DNA from: Gemmatimonadaceae bacterium
GTDB lineage: Bacteria > Gemmatimonadota > Gemmatimonadetes > Gemmatimonadales > Gemmatimonadaceae
NCBI GenBank assembly: GCA_030647905.1
Contig: JAUSJA010000017.1
Coordinates: forward strand, 1 to 64,000
Length of the DNA: 64,000 bases
Reading direction: 5' to 3'
This document shows positions 2,376 to 57,390 of this stretch, one piece after another. Both the position numbers and the translations under genes were made by a program. The first letter of the stretch is position 1, and each line of letters opens with the position of its first letter. The notes under the pieces were generated by a model. It saw nothing but the letters and a program-made list of their open reading frames with translations, was not told where the DNA came from and did not search any database.

Positions 2376-5300
2376 TCAGGCAACCTTTCTTGCCGCCTGG
2401 TACCGTCCCGCCGCGTCGACCGTGATTTCGCCCATGAGAGCGAGCGTTTCGAGGTGACGGACGATTAGATCGCGGCGCGCTCCCTTGAATGCGGACATCG
2501 CCTCGTCAGGCGTGACTGCCCTCTGAGCGACAAGCGATCCGATCGTTGAGAGCTGCTCGACAGCGGTAGCCGGCCAGGTTCTCGGCTGCTCCCCTTTGAC
2601 TGCCACGGATATTTCCTTCTCGGGCTGAGTCGACTCCGGCTGCTGCGCCGCGGGCGCGAAGCGGGGGATCTGGTAGTCGGGCCTGAGCCAGCGGATGATG
2701 CCTCGCTTCTCCTCTTCGACGCGTTCGTCGTGCAGCGCGACGAGCCGCTCGAGGATTTCCTCCTTCTCCATCGGCCACGGCCACCCGTACGCCTCGGCCA
2801 CGAGTGCATCGAGCTCGTTGTGGATGTCGCGAAGAACGCCGCACGCAGCGATCTCGTGGATCGCGCGCTCTTTCGGCGTGAGGCGCGCGCCGGAGCGGAG
2901 TTTCGCGACGACGTTGTACATGCCCGTCATCGTGACGCGCTCGTCGCGGGCGATGGCGGCTTTGCGGTGGGCGTCGAGGCGCTCGGCAACGGCGGAAACC
3001 CTGTTAGCAAGTTCAGGCTGGCCGACAGGAAAGCAGTACGGATCGAAGCAAAGGGTCTTAGTGTACCGTGGGCGATCCTCCAGAGTCGCTCCAGCGGAGA
3101 GTGCCCACGTCTCGTGCAGTTTGGATGACAGCACTCCAAGAATTGCGGCATTGTCAATGGCGATAGCGACAACGCTGTGGTCGGGCGCGATCGCTGCATC
3201 GACGAACTGGAAATGGCGAAACTTTGCTGTCTCGGTAGTGCCGATGTATCTCGAAAGTCCATGCAACGCTTGTCGAAGCTCCCGTCTTGGCCAGCCGAAC
3301 TGCCACCATTTTTCCCTGAGAACATCGCGTGCATTCGCTGCTCTTTCGGGTTTCACGCGGTCCCTTACGATCTCAAAAGCTTGAACGAAGGAAGTGGCTT
3401 CCGACTCCTCCATATATCCGAAGTCGATGACCCAGCGGTCGCGGGAGCGTTGAGTAAGATCTTTCCCAGCGACCATCGGTCTCACAATCTTGGTCAACGA
3501 AGGGCTCTGACGGAGTAGGGCGGCTGCTTCCTCTGCGGTAAGAAGGAACCCCGCGCCGTGAAGCGCGAAGCCCATTGATGCCACGCCCTTGTTGGCAAGG
3601 ACGCGTTGTTCCGTAGCTTCAGAAACATCCGCGCTTGCTGTAAGATCGTCGTTAAGCTGGGTGGCGGTCTGTATGCTGCCAACGGACCCCGCATCGTCGA
3701 TACTTACGAGTCGGGCGTTGTCAATCGGTTGTCCAAGTACGGTTAAAGCGACTCGAACGGCAGCCCCATCAACATCGTCATTCCACGGATGATTGGGAAT
3801 AGCCCAAATAACTCGTGCACCTAATTCACGTACTTGCTGGAGTACCGGGCGTGCGTGCACCTGAGTTATCGAGTTGGTCGTGATAATGCCTGCTCGAGCG
3901 ACTGCACCAGACGCAACCGCAACACCTGCCTTGTACCACCAATAGAGGACAAAATCCGCGCTCTCTGGGATGGTGGCGTACACGGTTCGAAGCGCATCGA
4001 CGTAGCCGTCTCCCAAGGCGTCGCGCATGCGCTTTGAGCCCAAGTACGGTGGATTCCCGACAATGAAATCTGCCTTCGGCCACTCCGCCTGCCTCGCGCC
4101 CAGATACTCATAATACGGCAGCTTCGCCTCAGGGTCCGGCACGAGCTCTCCGGTCACCGGATGCACGACGCGCGGCGTCGGATCGGGACGATCCCTCTCC
4201 GGCCGGTGCACGATCTCATCCCACGCCAGCACCGCGTCGCGGCACTCGATCGTCCCAGTGTCCTCGAGTATCGGATCGGGCGGCGTACGACCACCATGCG
4301 ACTCGCGCCAGAACTGGTGATAACCGATCCACAACGTCAGCTCGGCGATCTCACGCGCCCACGGCTTCACCTCGATACCGTGAAACTGCCGCGGATGCAC
4401 CTCGTCGAGAACGAGCGCGCCCTGACCGCCCGACAACCGCGTGATCTCGTTCAACACCTCGAGCTCGATCCGCTTCACCGCCGCCATCGTCACGTAAAGA
4501 AAATTGCCGCTCCCGCAGGCGGGATCGAGAAACGACAGCCCGCGCATCCACTCGTGAAAATCGCGAAGCTGCTTCACAGCTGCGGTCTTGTCCTTCGCCT
4601 TCCCGGTCTCCTCGAGCTGAAGCACCGCAGCCTGCACCGCAGTCCATCGCTCGCGTATCGGCTCAACCACAGTCGGCTCGACCAGCCGCTCTATGTACGC
4701 CCTTGGCGTATACTCGGCCCCCAGCCGATGACGTTCCTCCGGATCGAGCGCGCGCACTAGCAGCGTTCCGAAAATTGACGGCTCGACCTGCGACCAGTCG
4801 TGCTTCGCCGCTTCGATCAGGAGATCCACATCGCGCGCCTCGAGAGGCAGCGCCTCCACCGTTTGAAAGAAGTGTCCGTCAAAGCGATGCAGCATTTCTG
4901 CCCCGAACATCCCACCCGTATCCATCGTCTTCCAGAGGGAATCGAGGGCGAGAGTCAGCCGGTCCTTGTCCCGCGCGTGTCGCGCGGTCTCGAGCGTTCG
5001 ACGAAAGAGATTCTCTGGCAGGAGCCCGACATCTTCAGAGAACAGAGAGAAAACGCAGCGCATGAGGAACCGCCCGACACGCTCGGTGTCGAATCCGCGC
5101 GACTCGAGCTCAGCCGCCAGCTCGGCGAGTCCACCGGCGATCTCCTTGCTCACGGCCTGAGCCTTCCCACGGGGATCGCGCGCCGCTGGCTGAGCGAAGA
5201 TGTCGAACAGCAGCGCGATATCGTCGTGCCGCTCGTGCAGCGTCGAGAGCGCGATGCGGCGGCCGGCGGCGAAATCCCCGTACGCTCCGCTCCACCGGTC

Positions 5301-5699
5301 CCACACTATCAGCGTGCGCGACACGTCGAGCACCATCAGATATGGCGGCGGATCACCGGAAACGTGCGCGACGTAGTTGCGAACCTGCCCGAACGCCTTG
5401 CGGAGCAGGGAATCGTTGCGCGGACCCTCACCCGACGATTTCGCCTCGAGCGCGAAATACCCGGCCTTCCAGCAATCGATGTAATTGATCGATTCGCGCC
5501 CTTCCCGATCCACGACCGACACCGGCAATTCGAACCGATAGTCGTTCGTCGGGGGGTCAGGCTTCTCCACGCCGAGCGCGTCGCAGAAGCGCAGCATCCA
5601 GGTCTGGAAGGATGCTCGTTCGTTGACGCTGGTTTCCGCCCAGTCCTGGGCGAGCCCCGCGAGACGCGACGCGGCTTCGCGGGGAACGGATTCCGTCAC
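2376..5699 (-). CDS. MmeI-like single-chain restriction-modification enzyme (type IIG/IIL)
   Basis: 1107 residues, in the range of MmeI-like enzymes. The N-terminal part carries a PD-(D/E)xK nuclease site, seen as D75 and the E85-A-K87 of YFALEAKSSG. A helical linker follows. The methyltransferase part has the SAM motif FLDPACGSGNF near 390-400 and the adenine-methylase motif NPPY near 549-552. The C-terminal part (about 650-1000) would hold the target recognition domain, and the last stretch carries a Pro/Gln-rich linker and a small helical domain. The enzyme both methylates adenine in its site and cuts unmethylated DNA. No separate S or R subunit lies nearby, as expected for this class. A twin-hairpin terminator follows, and the patatin-like gene lies 9 bp upstream. 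Confidence 0.92.
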   Translation of the reverse strand: MTESVPREAASRLAGLAQDWAETSVNERASFQTWMLRFCDALGVEKPDPPTNDYRFELPVSVVDREGRESINYIDCWKAGYFALEAKSSGEGPRNDSLLRKAFGQVRNYVAHVSGDPPPYLMVLDVSRTLIVWDRWSGAYGDFAAGRRIALSTLHERHDDIALLFDIFAQPAARDPRGKAQAVSKEIAGGLAELAAELESRGFDTERVGRFLMRCVFSLFSEDVGLLPENLFRRTLETARHARDKDRLTLALDSLWKTMDTGGMFGAEMLHRFDGHFFQTVEALPLEARDVDLLIEAAKHDWSQVEPSIFGTLLVRALDPEERHRLGAEYTPRAYIERLVEPTVVEPIRERWTAVQAAVLQLEETGKAKDKTAAVKQLRDFHEWMRGLSFLDPACGSGNFLYVTMAAVKRIELEVLNEITRLSGGQGALVLDEVHPRQFHGIEVKPWAREIAELTLWIGYHQFWRESHGGRTPPDPILEDTGTIECRDAVLAWDEIVHRPERDRPDPTPRVVHPVTGELVPDPEAKLPYYEYLGARQAEWPKADFIVGNPPYLGSKRMRDALGDGYVDALRTVYATIPESADFVLYWWYKAGVAVASGAVARAGIITTNSITQVHARPVLQQVRELGARVIWAIPNHPWNDDVDGAAVRVALTVLGQPIDNARLVSIDDAGSVGSIQTATQLNDDLTASADVSEATEQRVLANKGVASMGFALHGAGFLLTAEEAAALLRQSPSLTKIVRPMVAGKDLTQRSRDRWVIDFGYMEESEATSFVQAFEIVRDRVKPERAANARDVLREKWWQFGWPRRELRQALHGLSRYIGTTETAKFRHFQFVDAAIAPDHSVVAIAIDNAAILGVLSSKLHETWALSAGATLEDRPRYTKTLCFDPYCFPVGQPELANRVSAVAERLDAHRKAAIARDERVTMTGMYNVVAKLRSGARLTPKERAIHEIAACGVLRDIHNELDALVAEAYGWPWPMEKEEILERLVALHDERVEEEKRGIIRWLRPDYQIPRFAPAAQQPESTQPEKEISVAVKGEQPRTWPATAVEQLSTIGSLVAQRAVTPDEAMSAFKGARRDLIVRHLETLALMGEITVDAAGRYQAARKVA

Positions 5700-5708
5700 G
5701 CGCCCAAT

Positions 5709-6911
5709 CTATGGAATAGGGGTATCAGCAGCAGCATCTGCCCCTTCGATGAACCCCCTGATCTGCTCCGACTGCGCCTCCGCGTCCTCTTCGCCAAGCT
5801 CGATCAGACGGCGCAGATAGTCCTCCTGGAACAGCACGAGGCTGATGAAGTCGGGGCTGGTCGTCTCCTTCGTTCCCAGCCCTCTCGTGAGATATCGCAC
5901 CGCAGTCGGAAGCCGCGGCTCCAATTCGCGCGCGAGGCTCCCAAGCTCGCGCGATGGACGCAGCACGAGAATGTTGACCACGCGCGTCGACTCCCGATGC
6001 TCCGGCGGCACGTGCCGAAGAAGGCGGTTCACCTTCTTCAGACGCAGAATGTCTTCCTCGATGATATCGAGAAAAATCGAGCTGTAGAGCACGCCGAGCA
6101 CCTGCGCGGGCGGCGGATACCCGGCCGTCATCGGCACGTCCGCCTCGGCGCGAGTCTTCTGATGCTTGGTGGAGATCGTGAGAATGCGCGACGCGCCGAG
6201 ATGCAGCGCCGGAGAAAGCGGCGCGGTCAAACGAACACCGCCGTCTCCGAACCACTCGCTTCCGACTTTCACGGCGGGGAAGAGCATCGGCAGAGCGCTC
6301 GACGCCATCACGTGCTCGACGGTCAGCCGCTCCATCTTGCTCCGCCGCTGCGGACGCTGCCACAGGTCAATGTCCTTTCCTTCGATCCACGTCACGGACT
6401 GCCCCGTCATGTAGCTCGTCGCGGACACCGCCACGGCCTGCAACGATCCGCTGGCGATCCGCCGCGCGATGCCGGGAAGCGTTCCGTCGGCATTCCGTTC
6501 GAGGCTCCCCTCGAGAAACTCCCTCAGTGGCTGCGTATCCATCATTCCGCGTATGGGCTCGCGCGCGTGGCGCGTGCCGCCCGACGTCAGCCGCACGCCC
6601 CACGTCACCATGTTCCTGAGTAGCGGGCCGGCGCGAAGGTCGTACACCTGTTCAGGTGATAGCGAGAGCCAGAGCTTCACGAGGTCGTCGGCCGCACGCT
6701 CGAGCGAGCCCTCGTGCGCTGCGAGATGCACCGTGTTCACAGCGCCAGCCGAGATGCCCGTGAGAATCGGGATCTTGAGCTGTGGATAGATTCGCGCGAG
6801 CCCGCGGAGAACGCCCGCCTGATAAGCGCCACGCGCTCCGCCGCCGCCGAGCATCAGGGCGAGGTGTCCTGGGTTCTCGCGGTCCGTCTCGATCAACGGA
6901 TTCTCAGCCAC
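5709..6911 (-). CDS. Patatin-like phospholipase family protein
   Basis: 400 residues. LMLGGGGARGAYQAGVL supplies the glycine-rich oxyanion motif, GISAGAVNT the GxSxG nucleophile serine, and WFGDGGVRL the DG(G/A) aspartate, so the Ser-Asp dyad is complete. Patatins are lipid acyl hydrolases. No signal peptide is seen, so it is probably cytosolic or peripheral. A C-terminal section with an acidic ending follows the catalytic domain. It sits between the M20 peptidase and the restriction gene on the same strand, 9 bp from the latter, so it may share a transcript without a functional link. Confidence 0.9.
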   Translation of the reverse strand: MAENPLIETDRENPGHLALMLGGGGARGAYQAGVLRGLARIYPQLKIPILTGISAGAVNTVHLAAHEGSLERAADDLVKLWLSLSPEQVYDLRAGPLLRNMVTWGVRLTSGGTRHAREPIRGMMDTQPLREFLEGSLERNADGTLPGIARRIASGSLQAVAVSATSYMTGQSVTWIEGKDIDLWQRPQRRSKMERLTVEHVMASSALPMLFPAVKVGSEWFGDGGVRLTAPLSPALHLGASRILTISTKHQKTRAEADVPMTAGYPPPAQVLGVLYSSIFLDIIEEDILRLKKVNRLLRHVPPEHRESTRVVNILVLRPSRELGSLARELEPRLPTAVRYLTRGLGTKETTSPDFISLVLFQEDYLRRLIELGEEDAEAQSEQIRGFIEGADAAADTPIP

Positions 6912-8452: not shown

Positions 8453-9595
8453 TCAGCGGGGGCCCTCGACCAGCTCTCGCATCACCTCGATGTATCTGTC
8501 CGTCACCCCCGCCCATCCGAATCGCGAAGCGGTATGCAGGCGCGCGCGGACCGACGCTACGCCGAGCCGATCCGGGTTGTCGTAGTAGCGCATTATCGCC
8601 GCGCGGAACTCCGCGACGCTGCCGCTTTCAACCAGATGGCCGTTCTCCCCCTCGGTGATGACGTCGGCAATTCCCTCGAGCTGTGACGCGATCGTCGGCA
8701 GCCCGCACAGCCCCGCCTCGAGCATCACCAGGCCGAACCCCTCGATGTCACCCGGCACCGGCACGTTCGGCATCACGAACAAGTCGGATCCGCGATAGAC
8801 GACCTCGAGCTCCGAGTCGCTAACGGCGCCGGTCAGCTTGACGCGAGCGCCGAGGTCGTGGTGGCGGATAGTGTCCTCGATGCGTGTGCGCTCCGGACCG
8901 TCGCCGACGATCAGGTAATGGACATCGGCCGGAAGCAGCGGCATGACGTTGGCGACGAACCACGCCACTCCCTTCCGCGGCACGAGCCGTCCGACGCTGC
9001 AGAGAATCAGTCGCGGTGCGGTTGCCTCGGCATCCGCGTACGCGGTGTGAATCCTCTCCCTCGCCGTGGCGTGATCTTGTTCTGGAGAGAACCTGTCCAG
9101 TCTGATGCCGAGTGGGACGACGGTGCACCTGGTGCGCGCCAATCCTCGCGCTTCGCTCGCCGCGGCGGTTGCGCGACTGATCGGCAGGGCGAGGTCCAGC
9201 GTCTCAAAGGTCCGGCGGACCAGCGATGGATAGGGCCACGTCGGGGTCGTCACGTCGAGGCCATTCACGATGGACGCCGTGACGATGCCGTTCCGCTTCA
9301 GAACGCTACGCAGTGGAACGACGAGCGCTGCGGTGACCATCGAGGAAAAAAGTATCGCGTCAACGTCGCGGCTCCGCGCGAGGCGGCGGATCTCCCGCAG
9401 CGCGGCTCCGAGGAAGACCGGCGTGCGCCAGGCGCGCTGATTCCATGGGCTTCGCAGGACGAGCGTAGTGACGTCGGCACCACGGTGCGTGAGCAGACTG
9501 TCGTGCAGATCCAATGAGACCCGCTGCATGCCGCCTACGTTCTCGAGTGGCCGTCCGCGCGGGGGAAGGGAATGCGAGACGAAGAGCAGGCGCAT
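8453..9595 (-). CDS. Glycosyltransferase family 4 protein
   Basis: 380 residues with the GT-B fold of GT4. MRLLFVSHSLPPRGRPLENVGGMQR is the N-terminal glycine loop region, and LCSVGRLVPRKG with YLIVGDGPER and the late GFGLVMLEAGLCGLPTIAS (E-x7-E type motif) form the nucleotide-sugar-binding half. Its ATG directly follows the TAG of the preceding GT gene, with no spacing. It is predicted to transfer a sugar from a nucleotide sugar at the inner membrane face. Its place beside the sphingolipid-type genes suggests a lipid acceptor, but the donor and acceptor are not readable. Confidence 0.9.
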   Translation of the reverse strand: MRLLFVSHSLPPRGRPLENVGGMQRVSLDLHDSLLTHRGADVTTLVLRSPWNQRAWRTPVFLGAALREIRRLARSRDVDAILFSSMVTAALVVPLRSVLKRNGIVTASIVNGLDVTTPTWPYPSLVRRTFETLDLALPISRATAAASEARGLARTRCTVVPLGIRLDRFSPEQDHATARERIHTAYADAEATAPRLILCSVGRLVPRKGVAWFVANVMPLLPADVHYLIVGDGPERTRIEDTIRHHDLGARVKLTGAVSDSELEVVYRGSDLFVMPNVPVPGDIEGFGLVMLEAGLCGLPTIASQLEGIADVITEGENGHLVESGSVAEFRAAIMRYYDNPDRLGVASVRARLHTASRFGWAGVTDRYIEVMRELVEGPR

Positions 9596-10729
9596 CTAAT
9601 TCAACTCTTCGTAGTATGAAGCAAGCTGACCGAGAATCCTGCTCCACTCGTATCCCTCGGCAGCTTCGCGTGCGGCTTTCCCCATGCGCGCCCGCAACGA
9701 AGCGTCTCCGATCAGCATCGCGACGCGGTCAAGAAATGCGCCGGTATCGCGCGGCGTGGCGAGAAATCCCGTATCTCCGTCATGCACCAGCGCATTGCTT
9801 CCCGTCGCGTCGGCGACCACCGCCGGGAGTCCCGATGATAGCGCCTCCAGCGTCACGTTGCCGAACGTCTCTGTCTCGCTCGGAAAGAGGAAAATGTCGG
9901 AGGATGCATACGCCGTGGCGAGCGCCTCTCCGGTGACATGTCCCTCGAAGATCGCCCCTGGAAGCGCGGCTTCCATTGCCGCTCGCTCGGGGCCGTCGCC
10001 CACGATCAGAGCGCGGTGAGGAATCCCTCTCTCACGCAGGCCCGAAATGACACCGGACACCACCCCGAGTCCCTTCTCCGTCACGAGCCGGCTCACGAAC
10101 GCGACAACCACTTCGTCATCGCCGATCCCGCGTTGGCTTCTCCACGCAGCAGAACGTCGCGAGGGCGCGAACAGCGCCGAATCAACTCCCCTCGGCCAGA
10201 GCCGAAGGTCGCCCGCAATACCCCGGGACCGGAGGACCGCGAGCATTGATGGAGTCGGAACATAGACCTGGCGGCACCGCGAGTAGAACCAGCGCAGGTA
10301 TCGCCAGGTCGGCGCTTCGAGCATCCCCAGACGGTAGTAATCCAGATAGGAGGCGAAATGGGTGTGGTAGGACGACACCACCGGCGTCCCCGTGCGGCGA
10401 GCGATGCGAAGCGCCGTCAGCCCCAGGATATCGGGGGTCGCGATGTGAAACAGCGTGGGACGAAATCGAGTAAGGGAAGCGCGGGCCCTCGCCGACATGC
10501 CAGTGGATATCCGGTAGTCGGGCCGACCCGGCGCCTGTACGGATGGTACTGGGACGAGGGTTCCGGCGTGCTGCAGCGCGGGGACGGGAACGGTGGGAGC
10601 GTAAACCTCGACAGCGGCACCCTTTGCCTCGAGAAATGCGACGAGCCGGTTGAGGGTAAGGGAGACGCCGTCCGCTATATGGTTGTAGGCGCCGGTGAAG
10701 AGCGCGATGCGCATTTCCGAAATCTTCAT
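9596..10729 (-). CDS. Glycosyltransferase family 4 protein (first of pair)
   Basis: About 377 residues. MRIALFTGAYNHIADGVSLTLN, VVSSYHTHFASYLDYY, VAFVSRLVTEKGLGVV, LIVGDGPERAAM and FLFPSETETFGNVTLEALSSGLP are typical of GT4 lipid-linked sugar transferases such as mannosyltransferases acting on glycolipids. Two starts are close together, at 10729 and 10714; the upstream extension to 10894 would overlap the divergent spt gene and lacks family character. Together with the next gene it forms a two-GT operon divergent from spt, with about 70 bp of shared promoter region. Confidence 0.9.
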   Translation of the reverse strand: MKISEMRIALFTGAYNHIADGVSLTLNRLVAFLEAKGAAVEVYAPTVPVPALQHAGTLVPVPSVQAPGRPDYRISTGMSARARASLTRFRPTLFHIATPDILGLTALRIARRTGTPVVSSYHTHFASYLDYYRLGMLEAPTWRYLRWFYSRCRQVYVPTPSMLAVLRSRGIAGDLRLWPRGVDSALFAPSRRSAAWRSQRGIGDDEVVVAFVSRLVTEKGLGVVSGVISGLRERGIPHRALIVGDGPERAAMEAALPGAIFEGHVTGEALATAYASSDIFLFPSETETFGNVTLEALSSGLPAVVADATGSNALVHDGDTGFLATPRDTGAFLDRVAMLIGDASLRARMGKAAREAAEGYEWSRILGQLASYYEELN

Positions 10730-10799
10730 ATAATTAGGTGGGTAATCATACGGCGGAGCGCGTTCCGCAACCTGGCCTAACACCGGAGACCGAGCTTTC

Positions 10800-12065
10800 G
10801 TGAATCCGAGACACCAGCGCAGAATGCGCTTTCCCGACGCGTCCGGCCCTGTTGAAGGGGTGCCCGCGGACGGCGCCCCCGCGACCACCGACATGCTGGC
10901 GAAGGCCTACGCCTATACGCGCCCGCAGGAGGTCAAGGCCCTCGGACTCTATCCGTATTTCCTGGCCGTGGAACAGTCGGATGCCACCGAGGTCATGGTG
11001 GAAGGTGTCCGCCGGGTGATGGTCGGCTCCAACAATTACCTGGGGCTCACCAATGACCCCCGTGTTCTCGAGGCGGCGAGCGCCGCGCTCCGGAAATACG
11101 GCAGCGCGTGCACGGGGAGCCGATTCCTCAACGGCAATACCGATCTTCACGACCGCCTCGAGACGGAGCTGGCGCAGCTGATGGGAAAGGAAGCGGCGCT
11201 CGTTTTTCCGACCGGCTATCAGGCCAACCTCGGCGTCATAGCCGCGCTCGCGGGCCCGGGTGACGTGCTGCTCCTGGACAAGCTCAATCACGCCAGCATC
11301 GTGGATGGCGCGGTGCTTTCTGGCGCGGAAGTCGTTCGCTTCAGGCACGGCGATCTGGCGCACCTCGACGCCCGGCTGAATCGCGCCGTCGGCCGGCCGA
11401 AGATGGTGATCGTGGAAGGCGTCTTCAGCATGGAAGGCGACCTCGCGGACATCCCGAAGATCGCGGATCTCTGCGATTCGCATTCGGCGCTGCTCGTGGT
11501 TGATGACGCCCATGGAGTGGGCGTCTTCGGGGAGACCGGCGCCGGCGTGTGCGAGCATTACGGCGCTGTGCCGCGTGTGGACCTCATCGTCGGCACGTTC
11601 AGCAAGTCGTTCGCGTCCATCGGCGGATTCGTCGCCGGCGACGAAGCGGTCATATCGTATCTGCGCCACACGGCGCGCCCGCTCATCTTCAGCGCGTCCA
11701 TTCCCGCATCGGCGTGCGCGACCGTTCTCACGGCGATCGAGATCATGCGGCAGGAGCCCGAGCGGCGGGAGCGCCTCTGGCAGAACGCCCGCCGGATGCA
11801 GCGCGAGCTTTCGGGACTCGGCTTCGATACCCTGGGCAGCCAGTCGCCGATCGTTCCGGTGATCGTCGGCGGAACGCTGCGCACGTTCGAGCTCTGGAAG
11901 CGGCTGCTCGACGCCGGAGTGTTCACGAATCCCGTCATCGCGCCGGCCGTTCCGGCCACGTCAGGGCGCATACGCACGTCCTACATGGCGACGCATACGG
12001 ACGCGCAGCTCGACTTTGTTCTTGACGCGTTCCAGCGCGTCGGCCGCGAGATGGACCTGATCTGA
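10800..12065 (+). CDS. spt: Serine palmitoyltransferase (alpha-oxoamine synthase family)
   Basis: 421 residues, a PLP fold-type I enzyme. VVDDAHGVGVFG holds the PLP-interacting Asp and His, and GTFSKSFASIGGFVAG the Schiff-base lysine. The family shares KBL, AONS, ALAS and SPT; the GTFSKS form with a Phe before Ser is that of bacterial SPT, whereas KBL, AONS and ALAS have GT(L)GKA. SPT condenses serine with an acyl thioester to give 3-ketosphinganine, the first step of sphingolipid synthesis. The next two genes resemble ceramide synthase and ceramide reductase, which supports this reading over biotin synthesis. No biotin gene is nearby. GTG start at 10800. Confidence 0.82.
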   Translation: MNPRHQRRMRFPDASGPVEGVPADGAPATTDMLAKAYAYTRPQEVKALGLYPYFLAVEQSDATEVMVEGVRRVMVGSNNYLGLTNDPRVLEAASAALRKYGSACTGSRFLNGNTDLHDRLETELAQLMGKEAALVFPTGYQANLGVIAALAGPGDVLLLDKLNHASIVDGAVLSGAEVVRFRHGDLAHLDARLNRAVGRPKMVIVEGVFSMEGDLADIPKIADLCDSHSALLVVDDAHGVGVFGETGAGVCEHYGAVPRVDLIVGTFSKSFASIGGFVAGDEAVISYLRHTARPLIFSASIPASACATVLTAIEIMRQEPERRERLWQNARRMQRELSGLGFDTLGSQSPIVPVIVGGTLRTFELWKRLLDAGVFTNPVIAPAVPATSGRIRTSYMATHTDAQLDFVLDAFQRVGREMDLI

Positions 12066-13207
12066 CCACCATCGCTGAACGCATCCGCGTCGAGCCCGTT
12101 CGCTCGAAGCCGGACCGGCGGGACTTCGTGGAGCTGCCGTTCAGGTTGTATCGCAACGATCCGCACTGGGTGCCGCCTCTCCGGCGTGACGTCCTCGAGC
12201 TGATCGATCCGTCGAAGCACCCCTTTCATCGGCATGCGACGGTGGAGCTGTTCCTCGCTCGCCAAGGGAAAAGAGTCGTCGGGCGGATCGCCGCGGTGCA
12301 GAACGATCTTCATATCGAAACGCACGGCGATCGTACCGGTTTCTTCGGTCTTTTCGAGTCGGAGCGGGACCGGCGCGTGTCGGCGGCACTGTTCGACGCC
12401 GCGCGAACATGGCTCGTCGCGCGAGGGCTCGAGACCATGCGGGGGCCGGCAAGCTTCTCACTGAACGAGGAATGCGGCCTGCTCGTCAGCGGATTCGACG
12501 GACCGCCGGTGGTGATGATGACGTACAATCCCCCCTGGTACGAGGAGCTGGTGGAGGGATACGGGTTCACGAAGACGAAGGACCTTCTCGCGTATTATCT
12601 GCCGGGTGCCGCGCCCACCGAGCGCCTCCTCCGGGTTGCAGACAAGCTGCGCGAGCGTTATCGGATCAGTGTTCGTGCGCTCGACACACGCCGCTTCTGG
12701 GACGAAGTCGCTCTCGTGCGGCAAGTGTATAACGAGGCATGGGAGGACAACTGGGGGCATGTACCGATGACCGAGGCCGAGCTCACCTACATGGCGAAGC
12801 AGCTCAAGCCGGTCGTGGATCCGTCGCTCGTCGTCTTCGCGGAAGTGAACGGCGAGCTCGCCGGGTTCGGGCTCGCTCTCCCGGATCTCAACGTTCCGCT
12901 CAAGCGCATGAACGGGCGGCTTCTGCCGTTCGGATGGGCGAAGGCGCTCTGGTATTCGCGAAAGATCAGCACGGCGCGCGTGCTGACGCTCGGCGTGCGG
13001 AAGAAGTTCCGGCGCAACGGAGTCGCCGAGCTGATGCAGCTCGAGCTGATGAAGAATGGCAATGCGCGGGGCATCGTGAACGCCGAGTTCTCGTGGATCC
13101 TCGAGGACAACACGATGATGCGCGCTCCTCTCGAGAAGATGGGCGCCCGTGTGTACCGCACTTATCGCATGTACGATCTTCCCACCGCCATGGGCTCCCA
13201 TGCCTGA
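12062..13207 (+). CDS. GNAT-type bacterial ceramide synthase-like acyltransferase
   Basis: About 381 residues. The body (LPFRLYRNDPHWVPPL, SLNEECGLLVSGFDGPP, MMTYNPPWYEELVEGYGF) matches the YghO-like GNAT family that includes the bacterial ceramide synthase described in Caulobacter, where it works with Spt and a reductase. It would acylate the sphinganine amine from acyl-CoA. The first canonical start is GTG at 12128, but the frame is open to 12062 and the extra residues (IAERIRVEPVRSKPDRRDF) complete the expected first strand. I therefore choose the CTG at 12062, whose TG is shared with the spt stop (CTGA). This start is inference. Confidence 0.72.
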   Translation: MTTIAERIRVEPVRSKPDRRDFVELPFRLYRNDPHWVPPLRRDVLELIDPSKHPFHRHATVELFLARQGKRVVGRIAAVQNDLHIETHGDRTGFFGLFESERDRRVSAALFDAARTWLVARGLETMRGPASFSLNEECGLLVSGFDGPPVVMMTYNPPWYEELVEGYGFTKTKDLLAYYLPGAAPTERLLRVADKLRERYRISVRALDTRRFWDEVALVRQVYNEAWEDNWGHVPMTEAELTYMAKQLKPVVDPSLVVFAEVNGELAGFGLALPDLNVPLKRMNGRLLPFGWAKALWYSRKISTARVLTLGVRKKFRRNGVAELMQLELMKNGNARGIVNAEFSWILEDNTMMRAPLEKMGARVYRTYRMYDLPTAMGSHA

Positions 13208-14189
13208 GCGTCCGCGCGTAGCGCTCGTTACGGGCGCATCGGGGTTCATCGGCAGCCACCTCGTCGAGGCGCTCGTTGCCCGCGGCTGGCGCGTGCGCTG
13301 CCTGGTACGGCGATCGAGTGTGCTGCGATGGCTTCCGACCGACGATGTGACGCTGATAAACGGGGACATCGCAGTGCCGGGCGAGGATCTCGAGCGCGCC
13401 GTGCGGAATGTCTCGGTCGTCTTTCATCTCGCCGGCCTCACTTCGGCGGTGAACGAGCAGTCCTACACCTCGGCCAACGTCGAGGGAACGCGCAATATCG
13501 TGGACGCCATGCGCCGCGCCGCGCCTGACGCTCTTCTCGTGTTCTGCTCGAGTCTTGCCGCGGCTGGCCCCGCGCCCAAGCGGCGCCCGTTGAACGAAAC
13601 GGACGAGCCATCTCCGGTGAGTGCCTACGGCCGGTCGAAGCTCACCGCCGAGCGCATCGTCGTGGAGTCGGGCCTGCAGTATCTCATCGTCCGGCCGCCC
13701 GCCGTTTACGGACCGCGAGACACGGACATCCTCGCCGCGTTCCGCCTCGCCGCCCACGGGCTCGCGCTCCGCGTTGCGCCCGAGTCGCAGCAGCTATCGC
13801 TGGTGCACGCAGCAGACCTGGCGCGCGGCTTCGTGTGCGCGGTGGAAGCGGAGGGTCGCGGACTCTACTACATGACGGACGGGATGATCCACACCTGGGA
13901 CGCGGTGATGGAGTACGTCGCGCGCGGGGTCGGTCGAAAGCCGAGGGTATTCGCGGTTCCCCCCGGAATTGCCGACGCGATCTCGCGGGCGGAACGACTG
14001 AGAGGATTGCTCACCGGCAGCAAGCCGCTCCTCACGCCCGACCGGATTCGCGAGCTGTCCGCGGGCGACTGGACGTGCGACGACACGCGTGCGCGACTGG
14101 ATGTGGACTACGAATCCACGATCACGCTGCCGGAAGGATTGCGGACGACGGCGGAGTGGTACCGCTCTCAGGGCTGGCTGTCGCGATAG
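13200..14189 (+). CDS. NAD-dependent epimerase/dehydratase (ceramide reductase-like)
   Basis: 329 residues of the extended SDR class. VALVTGASGFIGSHLVEAL is the GxxGxxG nucleotide site, and SAYGRSKLTAE gives the YxxxK catalytic pair. VVFHLAGLTS and RPPAVYGPRD are also typical. The ATG at 13200 is preferred because it gives the family N-terminus; an in-frame start at 13149 lies inside the previous gene. It overlaps the ceramide synthase-like gene by 8 bp. In Caulobacter, CerR of this family reduces the 3-keto group after N-acylation, so the three genes would make dihydroceramide in order. A different sugar or sterol substrate cannot be excluded from sequence alone. Confidence 0.8.
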   Translation: MPERPRVALVTGASGFIGSHLVEALVARGWRVRCLVRRSSVLRWLPTDDVTLINGDIAVPGEDLERAVRNVSVVFHLAGLTSAVNEQSYTSANVEGTRNIVDAMRRAAPDALLVFCSSLAAAGPAPKRRPLNETDEPSPVSAYGRSKLTAERIVVESGLQYLIVRPPAVYGPRDTDILAAFRLAAHGLALRVAPESQQLSLVHAADLARGFVCAVEAEGRGLYYMTDGMIHTWDAVMEYVARGVGRKPRVFAVPPGIADAISRAERLRGLLTGSKPLLTPDRIRELSAGDWTCDDTRARLDVDYESTITLPEGLRTTAEWYRSQGWLSR

Positions 14190-15166
14190 GTTCCGGGCGA
14201 GCGCCGCGTCGCCAGCACGAGCAGCAGCCCGATCGCGATCCATGAGAGTTCGCGCAGCCGGCTGATCACCGCCGCCGCCAGCCCAAGCCGGGCGGGAAGC
14301 CCGAGTGCCGCGAAGATCACGTACAGCCCTCCCTCTTTCGAGCCGACGTTGAACGGCATGAAGAAGAAGAGATTCACGACGAGGGACGAGAACCCGCCGA
14401 TGATGAACGCGCTGCCGAAGCTCACCGGGTGTCCGACCGCGCGGGCGATGATGAAGAATTCGAACATCGAGAGCACCCGCGCGCCGTATTCCGCGGCGAG
14501 CGACACGTAATAGCGCAGCGGGCTCGCGTGGTGGAAGGCGCGGAGCTGCCGGTCCACCTCGATGAGCGCCGCCCGGCGCGGCTCCAGTCTGCTGGCCAGC
14601 CGGCTCAGGAACGGAAGCCGGCGAGCGAGATCGAACAATCGCTCTATCACGCCTTCGCGGTGAATCGCGAACAGAAGCGCGCTGAGCAGAAGCAGGACGG
14701 CGGTGATGAGCACGAGGAGCACCGTCGCGATCGTCCCCGCCGGCAGAAGGATGAACGCGAGGGCGACGCCGGTGAGGAACACCAGCAGGTGCGCCTGCAT
14801 GTGCACGAGCCGGAAGTTGAGTACGGACGCGGCGCCGTTGCGCGCGCCCATCCATTGCGACGCCGCGATTATCTTGAACGGCTCGCCGCCGATGCTGGCG
14901 AACGGCGTCATGTAGTTGATGGCGAAAGCGGCGACGTTGATGACGTACGCGCGCGAGAACGAGAGCCGCGGCGTCTCGATCATCGTGAGACGCCAGGCTA
15001 CGGTGTTGAGCGCGTAGACCACGCCGTAGACCACGACGATTGCCGGGACCGCCCAGCCGGCGCCGCGCACGTCGGCGACGAGCTGTGCCGGATTCGCGCG
15101 GGCGACGAGCACGGTGAGCGCAATCGCCCCGATCGCGAACAGGATGAGCTGCGCACGCCGGCTCAT
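14168..15166 (-). CDS. UPF0104 / LPG synthase transmembrane-like membrane protein
   Basis: 332 residues with about eight hydrophobic segments, and conserved-looking patches INYMTPFASIGGEPFK and FNVGSKEGGLYVIFAALGLP, typical of the YbhN/UPF0104 (flippase-like) family related to the membrane part of MprF. The start at 15166 is chosen because AGGAAA precedes it; the frame runs on to 15202. Its 3' end overlaps cerR by 22 bp in convergent orientation. Family members are tied to lipid transfer or flipping in several bacteria, so moving a sphingolipid across the membrane is a reasonable guess, not a demonstrated role. Confidence 0.8.
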   Translation of the reverse strand: MSRRAQLILFAIGAIALTVLVARANPAQLVADVRGAGWAVPAIVVVYGVVYALNTVAWRLTMIETPRLSFSRAYVINVAAFAINYMTPFASIGGEPFKIIAASQWMGARNGAASVLNFRLVHMQAHLLVFLTGVALAFILLPAGTIATVLLVLITAVLLLLSALLFAIHREGVIERLFDLARRLPFLSRLASRLEPRRAALIEVDRQLRAFHHASPLRYYVSLAAEYGARVLSMFEFFIIARAVGHPVSFGSAFIIGGFSSLVVNLFFFMPFNVGSKEGGLYVIFAALGLPARLGLAAAVISRLRELSWIAIGLLLVLATRRSPGTYRDSQP

Positions 15167-15263
15167 CGTTCGATTTCCTGTCGCCGATCCATGCGACAAC
15201 ATGAGCCGTCCGAGCTTTCAGATCAACGGGCCTCCTCTTGCGTGACGCCGCGGGGCCCGCTGT

Positions 15264-15347
15264 CCGCTACCCGCTACCCGCTGCCCGCTACCCGCTGCCC
15301 GCTACCCGTTGCCCGCTGCCCGTTGCCCGTTGCCCGCTGCCCGTTGC
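15264..15347. repeat. Heptamer array, 12 units
   Basis: Twelve head-to-tail 7-bp units of CCGCTAC, CCGCTGC or CCGTTGC occupy exactly 84 bp. They differ only at two positions of the unit. The array lies in the gap between the UPF0104 gene and the hydrolase, and has no coding sense. Confidence 0.9.
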
Positions 15348-15383
15348 GACGAACATCGGCGATGCGAGCGCGCATAACGGGGT

Positions 15384-15492
15384 ACAGGCAACGGGTCACA
15401 GGTAACGGGTCACAGGTAACGGGTCACAGGTAACGGGTCACAGGTAGCGGGTCACAGGCAACGGGTCACAGGTAACGGGTCACAGGTAGCGG
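15384..15492. repeat. 14-bp direct repeat array, 7 full and 1 partial copies
   Basis: Units of ACAGGYARCGGGTC repeat without spacers. The reverse complement of a unit is made of two heptamers, one close to CCGTTAC and one close to CTGTGAC. It is therefore the same heptamer family as the array at 15264-15347 but in the opposite orientation, 36 bp away. A related array occurs at 57331-57390. There are no spacers, so this is not a CRISPR array. The rest of the 348-bp gap (15167-15514) shows nothing else. Confidence 0.9.
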
Positions 15493-15514
15493 CGAAGGCG
15501 ATTATGATTCGGCG

Positions 15515-16207
15515 ATGGCAGAGGAACGGCACATCCAGGTCAAGCGGTCCGCCCGCTACTGGCTGCTTGGCGACATCGGACCCGGGATCGAGGACGTCTG
15601 GTTCGTGTGTCATGGTTACGGCCAGCTCGCGTCGGATTTCGTGAAGGAGTTCGAGTGCATCGCCGATCCCCGGCGGCTGATCGTGGCCCCCGAGGCACTT
15701 TCACGATTCTACATCTCCAGCGGCCCGGGGTTTCACGCGGCCGACGCGAAGATCGGCGCCACCTGGATGACGCGCGAGGATCGGGAGGCCGAGATCGCGG
15801 ACTACATTGCGTACCTCGATGATCTTTATGCGGAGATCATGGGGGCCCTTCAGCGCGATGACATCGCGGTGACCGTTCTCGGATTCTCGCAGGGTGGGGC
15901 GACGGCGAATCGCTGGCTGACCCGCGGAACAGCGCGTGCTGGTCGCCTCCTCATGTGGGGATGCCTGCTGGCGAGCGATTCCGACCTGTTCGAGGCGGCG
16001 ACGTTCTTTCGGAACGTCGAGCTGTCCATCGTTTACGGGACACGCGACCAGTTCGCCGACACCGGAATGATCGAGGGCTACGAGAAACTGCTCGAGAAGC
16101 ACTCGGTTCCGTATCGGCTCGTCACGTTCGAAGGCGGACACCGAATGGACCGCGACACGCTGATGCGTCTCGCGTCACCTGTGTCAGCCGCGAATCAGCC
16201 GGGCTGA
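15515..16207 (+). CDS. Alpha/beta hydrolase, phospholipase/carboxylesterase type
   Basis: 230 residues. FVCHGYGQLASDF is the oxyanion-side HG motif, VLGFSQGGATANRW the nucleophile elbow GFSQG, YGTRDQFAD the acidic residue and GGHRMD the catalytic histidine, so the triad is complete. The layout matches the small cytosolic esterase family (COG0400-like). No signal peptide is present. No strong ribosome site is seen just before the ATG, and the gene begins 22 bp after the repeat array. Its 3' end overlaps the convergent MFS gene by 13 bp. The substrate is unknown. Confidence 0.85.
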   Translation: MAEERHIQVKRSARYWLLGDIGPGIEDVWFVCHGYGQLASDFVKEFECIADPRRLIVAPEALSRFYISSGPGFHAADAKIGATWMTREDREAEIADYIAYLDDLYAEIMGALQRDDIAVTVLGFSQGGATANRWLTRGTARAGRLLMWGCLLASDSDLFEAATFFRNVELSIVYGTRDQFADTGMIEGYEKLLEKHSVPYRLVTFEGGHRMDRDTLMRLASPVSAANQPG

Positions 16208-17367
16208 GGTGGTATCAGCGGTCCGAGTTTTCTCAGCTCGGGCCACGCCGCCGCCGCCCCGGCGACGACGAGTATGGTCCCGATTCCGCCGCCCACCACG
16301 GCGACAGTCGGACCCACCACCGCGGCGAGCGCACCCGACTCGAATCCGCCGAGCTCGTTCGACATGTCAATGAATACGCTGTTCACGGCGGACACGCGCC
16401 CGCGCATCTCGTCCGGCGTCCATAGCTGAACGAGAGTTCCGCGAATGATCATGCTGATTCCATCCAGCCCGCCGAGGATCAGCAGCATCGCGAGTGACAG
16501 TCCAAAGGACCGCGAAAGACCGAACACTATGGTTGCGGCGCCGAATCCCGTGACCGCGAGAATCAGCGTCCATCCCGTGCGCTTCATCGGCCGCCTGTGC
16601 GCGATGACAACCATCACGATCAGCGCTCCGACGGATGGCGCCGCGCGGAGCCAGCCGAGACCCTCGGGTCCGACTTGCAGGATATCCTTCGCGAATATCG
16701 GTAGCAGCGCGGTGGCGCCGCCGAAAAGCACGGCGAACAGATCGAGCGTGAGCGCGGCGAGAATTACCTTCGTGTCCTTCACGAATCTCATCCCGGCGGC
16801 AAGCGACTGCAGCGTCATCGGCTCACGCGGCCTGAGCGCCATCGCGCTCGTCGAATCCGGGCTCATCCCTGCGTCGCTTCGGATCGCCAGCAGCATGACG
16901 AGGTAGATGGACGTGAGACATGCATCAATCACGTATGCGCCGGTGGCGTGGTGTTGCAGCGCGATCACAAGCCCGCCGATCGCCGGCCCCACGACAGCCG
17001 CCGTCTGGAACGCGCTGCTCGACCACGTCACGGCATTGCCGAACACTTCCGCCGGTACGAGCCGCGGCAGCAGCGCCGATCGCGCCGGATTGTTGTACGC
17101 CTGCGCGACGCCGCGCACGAGCAGGATCGCGTAGACGATGACGATCGGCCCGCGCGAAAAGGACACAGCCGCGAGGCAGAGCGACATGAGAATGAACACA
17201 AGCTGCGCGCCGACGACTATTCGCTTGCGATCCATCCTGTCAGCCAGGTGACCAGCGGGGAGGGCCAGCAGCACCACCGGAATGGCCGTGACGAGACCGA
17301 CCATTCCCAGCGCCAGCGCGGAATGCGTGCGCTCGTACAACTCCCATCCGAGCGCGATCTGCAGCAT
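16195..17367 (-). CDS. MFS transporter (MFS_3/EntS-like)
   Basis: 390 residues from the first canonical start, with about eleven hydrophobic helices. LADRMDRKRIVVG is the cytoplasmic 2-3 loop motif. The frame is open upstream to 17460 and the extra residues DPYAALRHRDFRLFLIGR form the conserved N-terminus and most of helix 1, so the true start is almost certainly upstream. Only CTG (17430) or ATA (17460, in an ATAA overlap with the stop of the CBS gene) are available; there is no ATG, GTG or TTG. The substrate is not predictable. The gene lies directly downstream of the CBS/CorC gene on the same strand. Confidence 0.87.
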   Translation of the reverse strand: MLQIALGWELYERTHSALALGMVGLVTAIPVVLLALPAGHLADRMDRKRIVVGAQLVFILMSLCLAAVSFSRGPIVIVYAILLVRGVAQAYNNPARSALLPRLVPAEVFGNAVTWSSSAFQTAAVVGPAIGGLVIALQHHATGAYVIDACLTSIYLVMLLAIRSDAGMSPDSTSAMALRPREPMTLQSLAAGMRFVKDTKVILAALTLDLFAVLFGGATALLPIFAKDILQVGPEGLGWLRAAPSVGALIVMVVIAHRRPMKRTGWTLILAVTGFGAATIVFGLSRSFGLSLAMLLILGGLDGISMIIRGTLVQLWTPDEMRGRVSAVNSVFIDMSNELGGFESGALAAVVGPTVAVVGGGIGTILVVAGAAAAWPELRKLGPLIPPQPG

Positions 17368-57055: not shown

Positions 57056-57331
57056 ATGACGATCTTTCCCCTTCTTCAAGCTACGGTGACGTACACGAAG
57101 GAATTCTCCGCCGCGTGGGCGCTCATGGGCGCCGGCATTGGCGCGGGCATCGCGGTGATCGGAGCCGGCATCGGCATCGGCCGCCTCGCCGGTCAGGCGA
57201 TGGATGGCATGGCGCGTCAGCCCGAAATGGCCGGCCGCATCCAGACGGGCGCGATCATCTTCGCCGCGCTCATCGAAGGCGCCGCGCTGTTCGCGATCGT
57301 CGTGTCGTTCCTGATTCAGGGCAAGTTCTAA
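57056..57331 (+). CDS. atpE: ATP synthase F0 subunit c
   Basis: 91 residues in a two-helix hairpin. GIGAGIAVIGAGIGIGRLAGQAMDGMARQPEM is the first helix with the RQPE loop, and IFAALIEGAALFAIVVSFLI the second with the ion-binding Glu in ALIEGAALF. A short extra N-terminus (FPLLQATVTYTKEFSAAW) might be a leader peptide. No Ser/Thr follows the Glu, so a proton type is more likely than the sodium type. The TAA stop is the start of a repeat array. Confidence 0.95.
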   Translation: MTIFPLLQATVTYTKEFSAAWALMGAGIGAGIAVIGAGIGIGRLAGQAMDGMARQPEMAGRIQTGAIIFAALIEGAALFAIVVSFLIQGKF

Positions 57332-57390
57332 CCAGTTACCCGCTACCAGTTACCCGCTACCAGTTACCCGCTACCAGTTACCCGTTACCC
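57331..57390. repeat. 14-bp direct repeat array (heptamer family)
   Basis: Four copies of ACCAGTTACCCGCT (the last ending TT) plus a partial unit. Each 14-mer is two heptamers close to CCGCTAC/CAGTTAC, the same class as the arrays at 15264-15347 and 15384-15492. It lies between atpE and atpF inside the operon and is transcribed with it. Confidence 0.9.

Follow-up and report, generated by a model that had tools for sequence, protein, structure and literature searches.

In this study, we analysed a window of 64,000 nucleotides (the whole stretch of DNA) from a Gemmatimonadaceae bacterium, in which the operon at 10893-14189, composed of spt, cerS and cerR, very probably makes dihydroceramide. 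This core is well supported and is laid out unlike the described pathway, and we infer sugar and transport roles for the genes around it. The grading given above covers the dihydroceramide core; the glycosyltransferase and UPF0104 steps are based on family resemblance and gene neighbourhood. Assignments within the core employed a combination of homology, a best-hit test, trees and synteny, and the three-step ceramide core read in the earlier note was upheld by all of them, the three trees being concordant and the synteny broad.

All six genes of the locus (8453-15202) were present in the order and orientation described before, i.e. two GT4 genes on the minus strand, the trio on the plus strand, and a UPF0104 (PF03706) gene on the minus strand converging on cerR (Table 1).

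Table 1. Features of the locus with their predicted identities
Feature	Position	Strand	Remarks
GT4a	8453-9595	-	Pfam Glyco_trans_1_4, 1.7e-31; GT4, GT-B; best solved relative PimB'
GT4b	9596-10729	-	GT4 by Pfam; PimA-like along full length
spt, serine palmitoyltransferase (alpha-oxoamine synthase)	10893-12065	+	start possibly GTG 10800
cerS, bacterial ceramide synthase (tandem GNAT N-acyltransferase)	12062-13207	+	likely CTG start; first standard start GTG 12128
cerR, ceramide reductase, extended SDR/epimerase family	13200-14189	+	Pfam Epimerase, 1.8e-38
UPF0104 / LPG_synthase_TM (PF03706) membrane protein, flippase-like	14168-15202	-	PF03706, 3.8e-25; TIGR00374
Two tandem arrays	15255-15492		7-bp GCCCGCT x13; 14-bp TAACGGGTCACAGG x8

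The UPF0104 reading frame reaches 15202, and position 15166, where the gene had previously been ended, is an internal ATG. The tandem arrays lie at the right border of the block, between UPF0104 and a conserved backbone gene at 15515. The statement that all three core genes overlap was borne out for cerS and cerR, which share 8 bp, while for spt and cerS it depends on which start codon is used by the latter. The first ATG, GTG or TTG of cerS is the GTG at 12128, located 63 bases beyond the spt stop; since a conserved N-terminal segment of the protein (residues 8-22 of the longer form) is encoded upstream of it without any standard start codon, the likely start is CTG 12062, which shares the sequence CTGA with the spt stop. 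An apparent NTGA overlap of this kind was counted by us in 31/59 loci, which is weak evidence because any TGA stop yields NTG in that frame. The converging cerR and UPF0104 genes share 22 bp at their 3' ends. Scans of the locus for promoters and terminators gave signals not clearly above those of shuffled sequences.

Among solved enzymes the spt product matched best the Sphingobacterium serine palmitoyltransferase (SPT; 3a2b/8guh, 385 bits by phmmer), followed by a dual BioF/Kbl enzyme (8s1y, 306 bits), Kbl (267), ALAS (225), BioF (215) and the cysteate enzyme (200). The top-ranked NCBIfam model was likewise an SPT (SerpalmtaseCFB, 485 bits, cut-off 640), with the BetaP SPT model at 409 bits (cut-off 500); because both scores lie under the cut-offs, the protein appears to stand outside the subfamilies of these models. 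The PLP lysine and the active-site motifs GTFSKS, VDDAH, NHASI and GSRFLNG align with those of reference SPTs, but do not discriminate SPT from BioF, as most are common to both.

That the first gene encodes BioF or Kbl, acting in biotin or threonine metabolism beside unrelated enzymes, is barely credible. The enzymes do belong to one superfamily, the bioF model reaches 392 bits, not far below the SPT models, and identity to a BioF amounts to 42%; yet both the model ranking and the best solved match favour SPT, and in the tree the protein groups with SPTs of other phyla, leaving outside BioF, Kbl and a paralogue from the same genome (support 93/86). This paralogue, a separate BioF/Kbl-like gene at C25, is of the kind found in genus-mates which have no spt, and many phyla keep spt next to cerS and cerR. 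On the models, the solved match and the tree we rejected the BioF/Kbl identity. Very unlikely, too, is that the trio starts from cysteate instead of serine and yields a capnine-type N-acylated sulfonolipid in place of ceramide: the reaction logic of alpha-oxoamine synthase, N-acyltransferase and reductase would be the same and spt has the solved cysteate C-fatty acyltransferase among its homologues, but the score of that enzyme is far below that of the solved SPT, and for CerS and CerR the matches are ceramide genes of the Rhodobacterial kind.

The CerS sequence was compared with the references from E. coli (YghO; 38% identity over 373 columns), Sphingomonas (38%, 380 columns) and Rubrobacter (44%). 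The E. coli YghO cluster, arranged as aasR-cerR-acpR-spt / cerS, agrees with the E. coli sphingolipid genes reported in PMC9386255. An AlphaFold model of CerS (pLDDT 85.5) shows a tandem GNAT fold with Z 20-24 to tandem GNATs over ~300 residues (24.5 to 7q3a), and the predicted fold resembles N-myristoyltransferase as well. With E. coli CerR as a query, cerR was the best match in the genome (108.5 bits, 3.7e-31), the next SDR reaching 50 bits (2.4e-13); it is 36% identical to Sphingomonas CerR. A hopanoid reading, suggested by the NCBIfam names HpnA and HpnL, was discarded with scores far under the cut-offs (127.8 of 367.65; 82.9 of 195.65).

The SPT, CerS and CerR trees each unite the window with genomes G293, G309 and the three of group g7 (support 100/99), which points to co-inheritance of the core genes. 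Within Gemmatimonadota the trio is conserved, and it turns up again in other phyla. Its grouping is more than chance, as spt-cerS-cerR stand in the same order and on the same strand in 46 of 89 cerS-centred loci, with 12 further loci ordered cerR-spt-cerS, and 58 of the 80 named loci, drawn from many phyla, have spt no more than 4 kb away from cerS. A different outcome was obtained for the proposal that the whole six-gene neighbourhood is conserved in relatives: neither the 89 cerS-centred nor the 80 named loci held a second example, and the six-gene set was ruled out as a conserved system. The earlier note had named a lack of joint conservation of the neighbours in relatives as its second ground for refutation; judged by this, the core passes and the flanking genes fail.

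The block itself is accessory and takes the place of other envelope genes at a site conserved in the genus, because genus-mates are without these genes and, where the site was read, carry there an O-antigen-ligase-like (Wzy_C) gene, usually with an M48 gene. Replacement of LPS by sphingolipid is unlikely, LpxC being present. Searching elsewhere in the genome for a PAP2_3 (AUR1-like) protein as the missing fourth gene gave one partial match, truncated where its contig stops, and two under the cut-off, none clearly like the ceramide-linked family.

As for the glycosyltransferases, GT4a resembles the PI monomannoside mannosyltransferase PimB' (3oka/3okc, 7e-19 by phmmer) and had no close homologue in 41 relatives or near any ceramide locus examined. 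GT4b is similar to PimA (2gej/4n9w) over residues 4-375; its best NCBIfam model, GlcNAc-phosphatidylglycerol synthase, scored 147 bits under a cut-off of 480. The best homologues of GT4b that were found (43-46%) adjoin ceramide genes of family f6 (L052, L079, L084, L088). The pair is missing beside the operon in the closest ceramide clade of the window. Glycosylation stays plausible since ceramide operons have GT4 neighbours in families f6, f5 and parts of f1. Among retaining families, acceptors of the ceramide or diacylglycerol type have been reported for GT4 alone (PMC9692976).

The UPF0104 protein matches PF03706 along about its full length (residues 21-319, 89.4 bits, cut-off 33.4) and TIGR00374 just above the cut-off (44 against 43.2 bits). 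Its gene was found in 38 of 298 genomes of the phylum, 36 of which carry cerS (Fisher p 2e-7, kinship of the genomes being ignored), and in 16 of the 38 it converges on the ceramide operon within ~4 kb, an arrangement seen repeatedly in two families. The link drawn earlier between UPF0104 and ceramide thus holds as co-occurrence and partly as neighbourhood, and is weakened by the fully read relatives, in which the gene usually ends a module of ATP-grasp, class III aminotransferase, CDP-alcohol phosphotransferase and inositol-dehydrogenase-like genes. UPF0104 may therefore serve this inositol-lipid-like module instead; the module is absent at the window locus.

It is quite possible, if somewhat short of an even chance, that the core makes dihydroceramide while the GT4 pair and UPF0104 travel as passengers with a site for envelope polysaccharide or some other lipid, ceramide not being their substrate. 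The Wzy_C and M48 genes of genus-mates mark the site as an exchange point for envelope genes, the GT4 pair is not common to the nearest ceramide loci, and UPF0104 has its module in relatives; on the other side stand the repeated convergence of UPF0104 on ceramide operons, the recurrence of GT4 genes beside them, and the fact that all six genes fill the site as one block.

In the very probable core route, SPT would join L-serine to a long-chain acyl thioester by condensation, N-acylation of the resulting 3-keto base would fall to the tandem GNAT CerS, and the ketone would be reduced by the SDR CerR, the last two steps following the order put forward for Caulobacter. Ceramide glycosylation and flipping by the flanking genes are plausible: in the cytoplasm, one or both of the PimA/PimB'-like enzymes could glycosylate ceramide (or another lipid), and UPF0104 might help the ceramide-derived lipid to cross the inner membrane. 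Caulobacter CerR is periplasmic (PMC11087976), and the protein described here starts almost at the Rossmann motif; if it were periplasmic as well, the cytoplasmic GT4 enzymes must act before CerR or on another lipid. A more specific version, which we regard as unlikely, makes UPF0104 the missing inner-membrane translocase of Gemmatimonadota for (3-keto)ceramide or glycosylated/phosphorylated ceramide, so that the lipid made by CerS is flipped for reduction and export, and the GT4 pair adds a PIM-like two-sugar headgroup. According to PMC11087976 bacteria have no identified sphingolipid flippase, and UPF0104, as a recurrent neighbour, offers a concrete candidate that can be tested.

Known ceramide glycosyltransferases include Caulobacter Sgt1/Sgt2, which glycosylate ceramide in two steps (PMC6445935), and the Bacteroides fragilis alpha-GalCer synthase BF9343_3149, a GT4 enzyme (PMC9692976); the window enzymes are compared with them here by their proposed function. 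The nearest loci are those of Gemmatimonadota g7 (G025, G104, G107) and G309, sisters of the window in all three trees, which likewise combine spt-cerS-cerR and UPF0104 at one locus (convergent in g7), but in which UPF0104 is joined to ATP-grasp, aminotransferase III, CDP-alcohol phosphotransferase and MocA genes and the GT4 pair is lacking. The same gene order, with genes that overlap or nearly do so, occurs in Rubrobacter radiotolerans and Streptomyces sp. NBC_01001 plasmid operons, whose sequences are 37-50% identical to those of the window and which have neither the GT4 pair nor UPF0104. Bacterial sphingolipids were placed in Bacteroidetes and Proteobacteria by a 2022 paper (PMC9386255), and our text search of the literature found no paper on sphingolipid genes of Gemmatimonadota; the locus and its relatives predict these lipids in much of this phylum and in others, from one compact operon.

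The Caulobacter/Rhodobacterial set (aasR, cerR, acpR, spt and cerS; CC_1165-1162, CC_1154) has homologous CerS, CerR and SPT, with the same three reactions expected (PMC9386255, PMC11087976, PMC11324152), the sequence references being the E. coli YghO cluster and Sphingomonas. Rhodobacterial SPT requires a dedicated ACP and acyl-ACP synthetase (PMC9386255), whereas gene calling across 8453-17367 placed neither an ACP nor an acyl-AMP ligase (acpR/aasR) beside the operon, which speaks against the ceramide assignment; lptFG are likewise not adjacent, and the SPT falls outside the Rhodobacterial branch of the tree. According to PMC11324152 cerS is always found in a separate operon; the layout of the present locus, with cerS between spt and cerR in one operon, departs from this rule.

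Domain searches bore out all gene calls of the earlier note: a pair of GT4 glycosyltransferases and one each of alpha-oxoamine synthase, GNAT protein, extended SDR and PF03706 (UPF0104) membrane protein. Sequence comparison establishes the identities of the enzymes and the linkage of their genes. The closest solved relatives of the window serine palmitoyltransferase (SPT) were the Sphingobacterium SPTs (385 bits), with lower scores for Sphingomonas SPTs (304-311), a dual BioF/Kbl enzyme (306) and Kbl (267), and the lowest for ALAS (225), BioF (215) and the cysteate enzyme (200). Curated SPT models ranked top, yet below their cut-offs, which puts the protein outside the subfamilies they cover. 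BioF, Kbl and the host's own paralogue fell outside the main SPT group in the tree (93/86). An SPT-like oxoamine synthase, 48% identical to the window SPT, was also noticed on a Priestia megaterium (Bacillota) plasmid, adjoining methyltransferase and acyltransferase genes. The ceramide synthase (CerS) has the predicted structure of a tandem GNAT, N-myristoyltransferase also being close. In a 13-member alignment, including Sphingomonas, Roseomonas, E. coli, Rubrobacter and Streptomyces, identity to it was 37-65% and conserved positions were spread over the full length. With E. coli CerR as bait, the window cerR was the best match in the host genome (108.5 bits vs 50 for the next).

The host genome comprises 3.1 Mb in 37 contigs, the window being bases 1-64000 of contig C17. 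In genus-mates, an M20 peptidase gene and counterparts of the window genes at 15515, 16198 and 17460 enclose Wzy_C (O-antigen-ligase-like) and usually also M48, while the corresponding interval in the window is filled by the six genes. None of the 18 genus-mates carries a true SPT, a UPF0104 gene or a close counterpart of GT4a or GT4b; as judged from sequence, the block is accessory. Tandem arrays lie at its right edge, and a similar one occurs elsewhere in the window (table). To the left of the M20 gene we noted a type IIG restriction-methyltransferase resembling MmeI (1268 bits), together with a patatin-like phospholipase, neither matched beside M20 in the genus-mates whose site was read.

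Maximum-likelihood trees of SPT, CerS and CerR each joined the window with G293 (family f10), G309 and three genomes of genus g7 (100/99), a group which for CerS additionally contains G244; since this group is fully supported in all three, the genes share a history, deep branching among phyla being insecure owing to the program's long-branch warning. Homologues of cerS turned up in 175 of the 298 genomes of the phylum, a count that takes in some weak GNAT hits. Loci centred on cerS had the order spt-cerS-cerR in 46 of 89 cases and cerR-spt-cerS in 12. Among 80 named loci, picked by cerS similarity and belonging by record title to Acidobacteria, Myxococcota, Ignavibacteria, Zixiibacteriota, Cloacimonadota, Planctomycetota and others, 58 had spt no more than 4 kb from cerS, with cerR near as well in 46, both lower bounds because some contigs are short. 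Overlapping or tight spt-cerS-cerR operons were also seen on plasmids of Streptomyces sp. NBC_01001, followed by a condensation-domain gene, and Rubrobacter radiotolerans.

The UPF0104 gene occurs in 38 of the 298 genomes, 36 of which have cerS (Fisher p 2e-7, kinship of genomes ignored); 16 carry it no more than about 4 kb from cerS, in every case downstream of cerS and on the other strand. Genus g7, G309 and family f2 have it as the last gene of a run (ATP-grasp, class III aminotransferase, CDP-alcohol phosphotransferase, MocA oxidoreductase, UPF0104). The ATP-grasp label is our interpretation of a sequence that gave no Pfam match, and this gene was not found in G309. In some members, archaetidylinositol-phosphate synthase is the nearest match of the phosphotransferase, and inositol dehydrogenase that of the oxidoreductase, both scoring far below cut-off. 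The run would constitute a cyclitol-phospholipid module, possibly an aminocyclitol phospholipid pathway. In many Gemmatimonadota operons a PAP2_3 (PF14378) gene stands immediately 3' of cerR or cerS, and related genes near cerS occur in Acidobacteria, Myxococcota, Cloacimonadota and others; its product is a candidate ceramide headgroup transferase. Eukaryotic inositol-phosphorylceramide synthase belongs to the PAP2_3 superfamily. Taken together, the module and the PAP2_3 genes suggest inositol-type phosphoceramides in these relatives. Beside the window operon neither was present, only UPF0104 and the GT4 pair, and therefore its headgroup chemistry may differ.

Features of the ceramide loci and their surroundings
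Feature	Location	Remark
Tandem array	window 15255-15347	right edge of block; 7-bp / 14-bp units
Tandem array	window 15375-15492	right edge of block; 7-bp / 14-bp units
Tandem array	window 57331-57389	similar to both above
MmeI-like gene	window 2379-5699 (-)	
Patatin-like gene	window 5712-6911 (-)	
Putative cyclitol-type module	L059:1615-7302; L117:5816-11110; L218; L228	convergent with ceramide operon
PAP2_3 gene	L103:2572-3591; L061:3670-4692	about 30 other loci
GT2-type gene	L084:13200-14354	
AMP-ligase, phosphopantetheine carrier, alpha-oxoamine synthase fusion	L048:9339-12647 (-)	about 1100 residues; Pfam, L048 member
Streptomyces operon	L185:3718-8244	
Rubrobacter operon	L120:8659-12026	
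Priestia SPT-like gene	L184:2995-4209	

GT4b is PimA-like over its full length and GT4a PimB'-like, which does not fix the acceptor because GT4 is a large family. The best homologues found for GT4b come from four loci of family f6, on the downstream side of cerS, their sister status being uncertain in the tree; further GT4 genes adjoin ceramide genes in f5 and f1, and GT4a had no near relative in the genomes and loci sampled. In f6 loci (L084 and sequence cluster c38) a GT2-type glycosyltransferase (GT21 match, 47 bits) stands upstream of the ceramide genes.

The block would serve to make, glycosylate and flip a ceramide, CerS presumably acting before CerR (PMC11087976). Caulobacter CerR is periplasmic (PMC11087976); were this so here, the UPF0104 step could fall after CerS and before CerR, and were CerR cytoplasmic, finished ceramide could be the substrate of the GT4 enzymes.

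The enzymes themselves are already known. In the literature covered (primary Caulobacter paper excepted), the arrangement as a single operon that includes cerS, the window's SPT branch and linkage of ceramide genes to UPF0104 or GT4 genes are undescribed; the primary Caulobacter paper may already list Gemmatimonadota. In E. coli the order is aasR, cerR, acpR, spt with divergent yghO (cerS), in agreement with the published ceramide cluster (PMC9386255), on whose gene order, together with annotations, our naming of aasR, cerR, acpR and cerS rests. No ACP or acyl-ACP synthetase gene stands beside the window operon. One lineage of Gemmatimonadota instead has these domains joined to the oxoamine synthase as a fusion (cluster also in L041, L043, L047 and L050; cerS adjoins, cerR often), a single polypeptide apparently combining the functions of Rhodobacterial aasR, acpR and spt.
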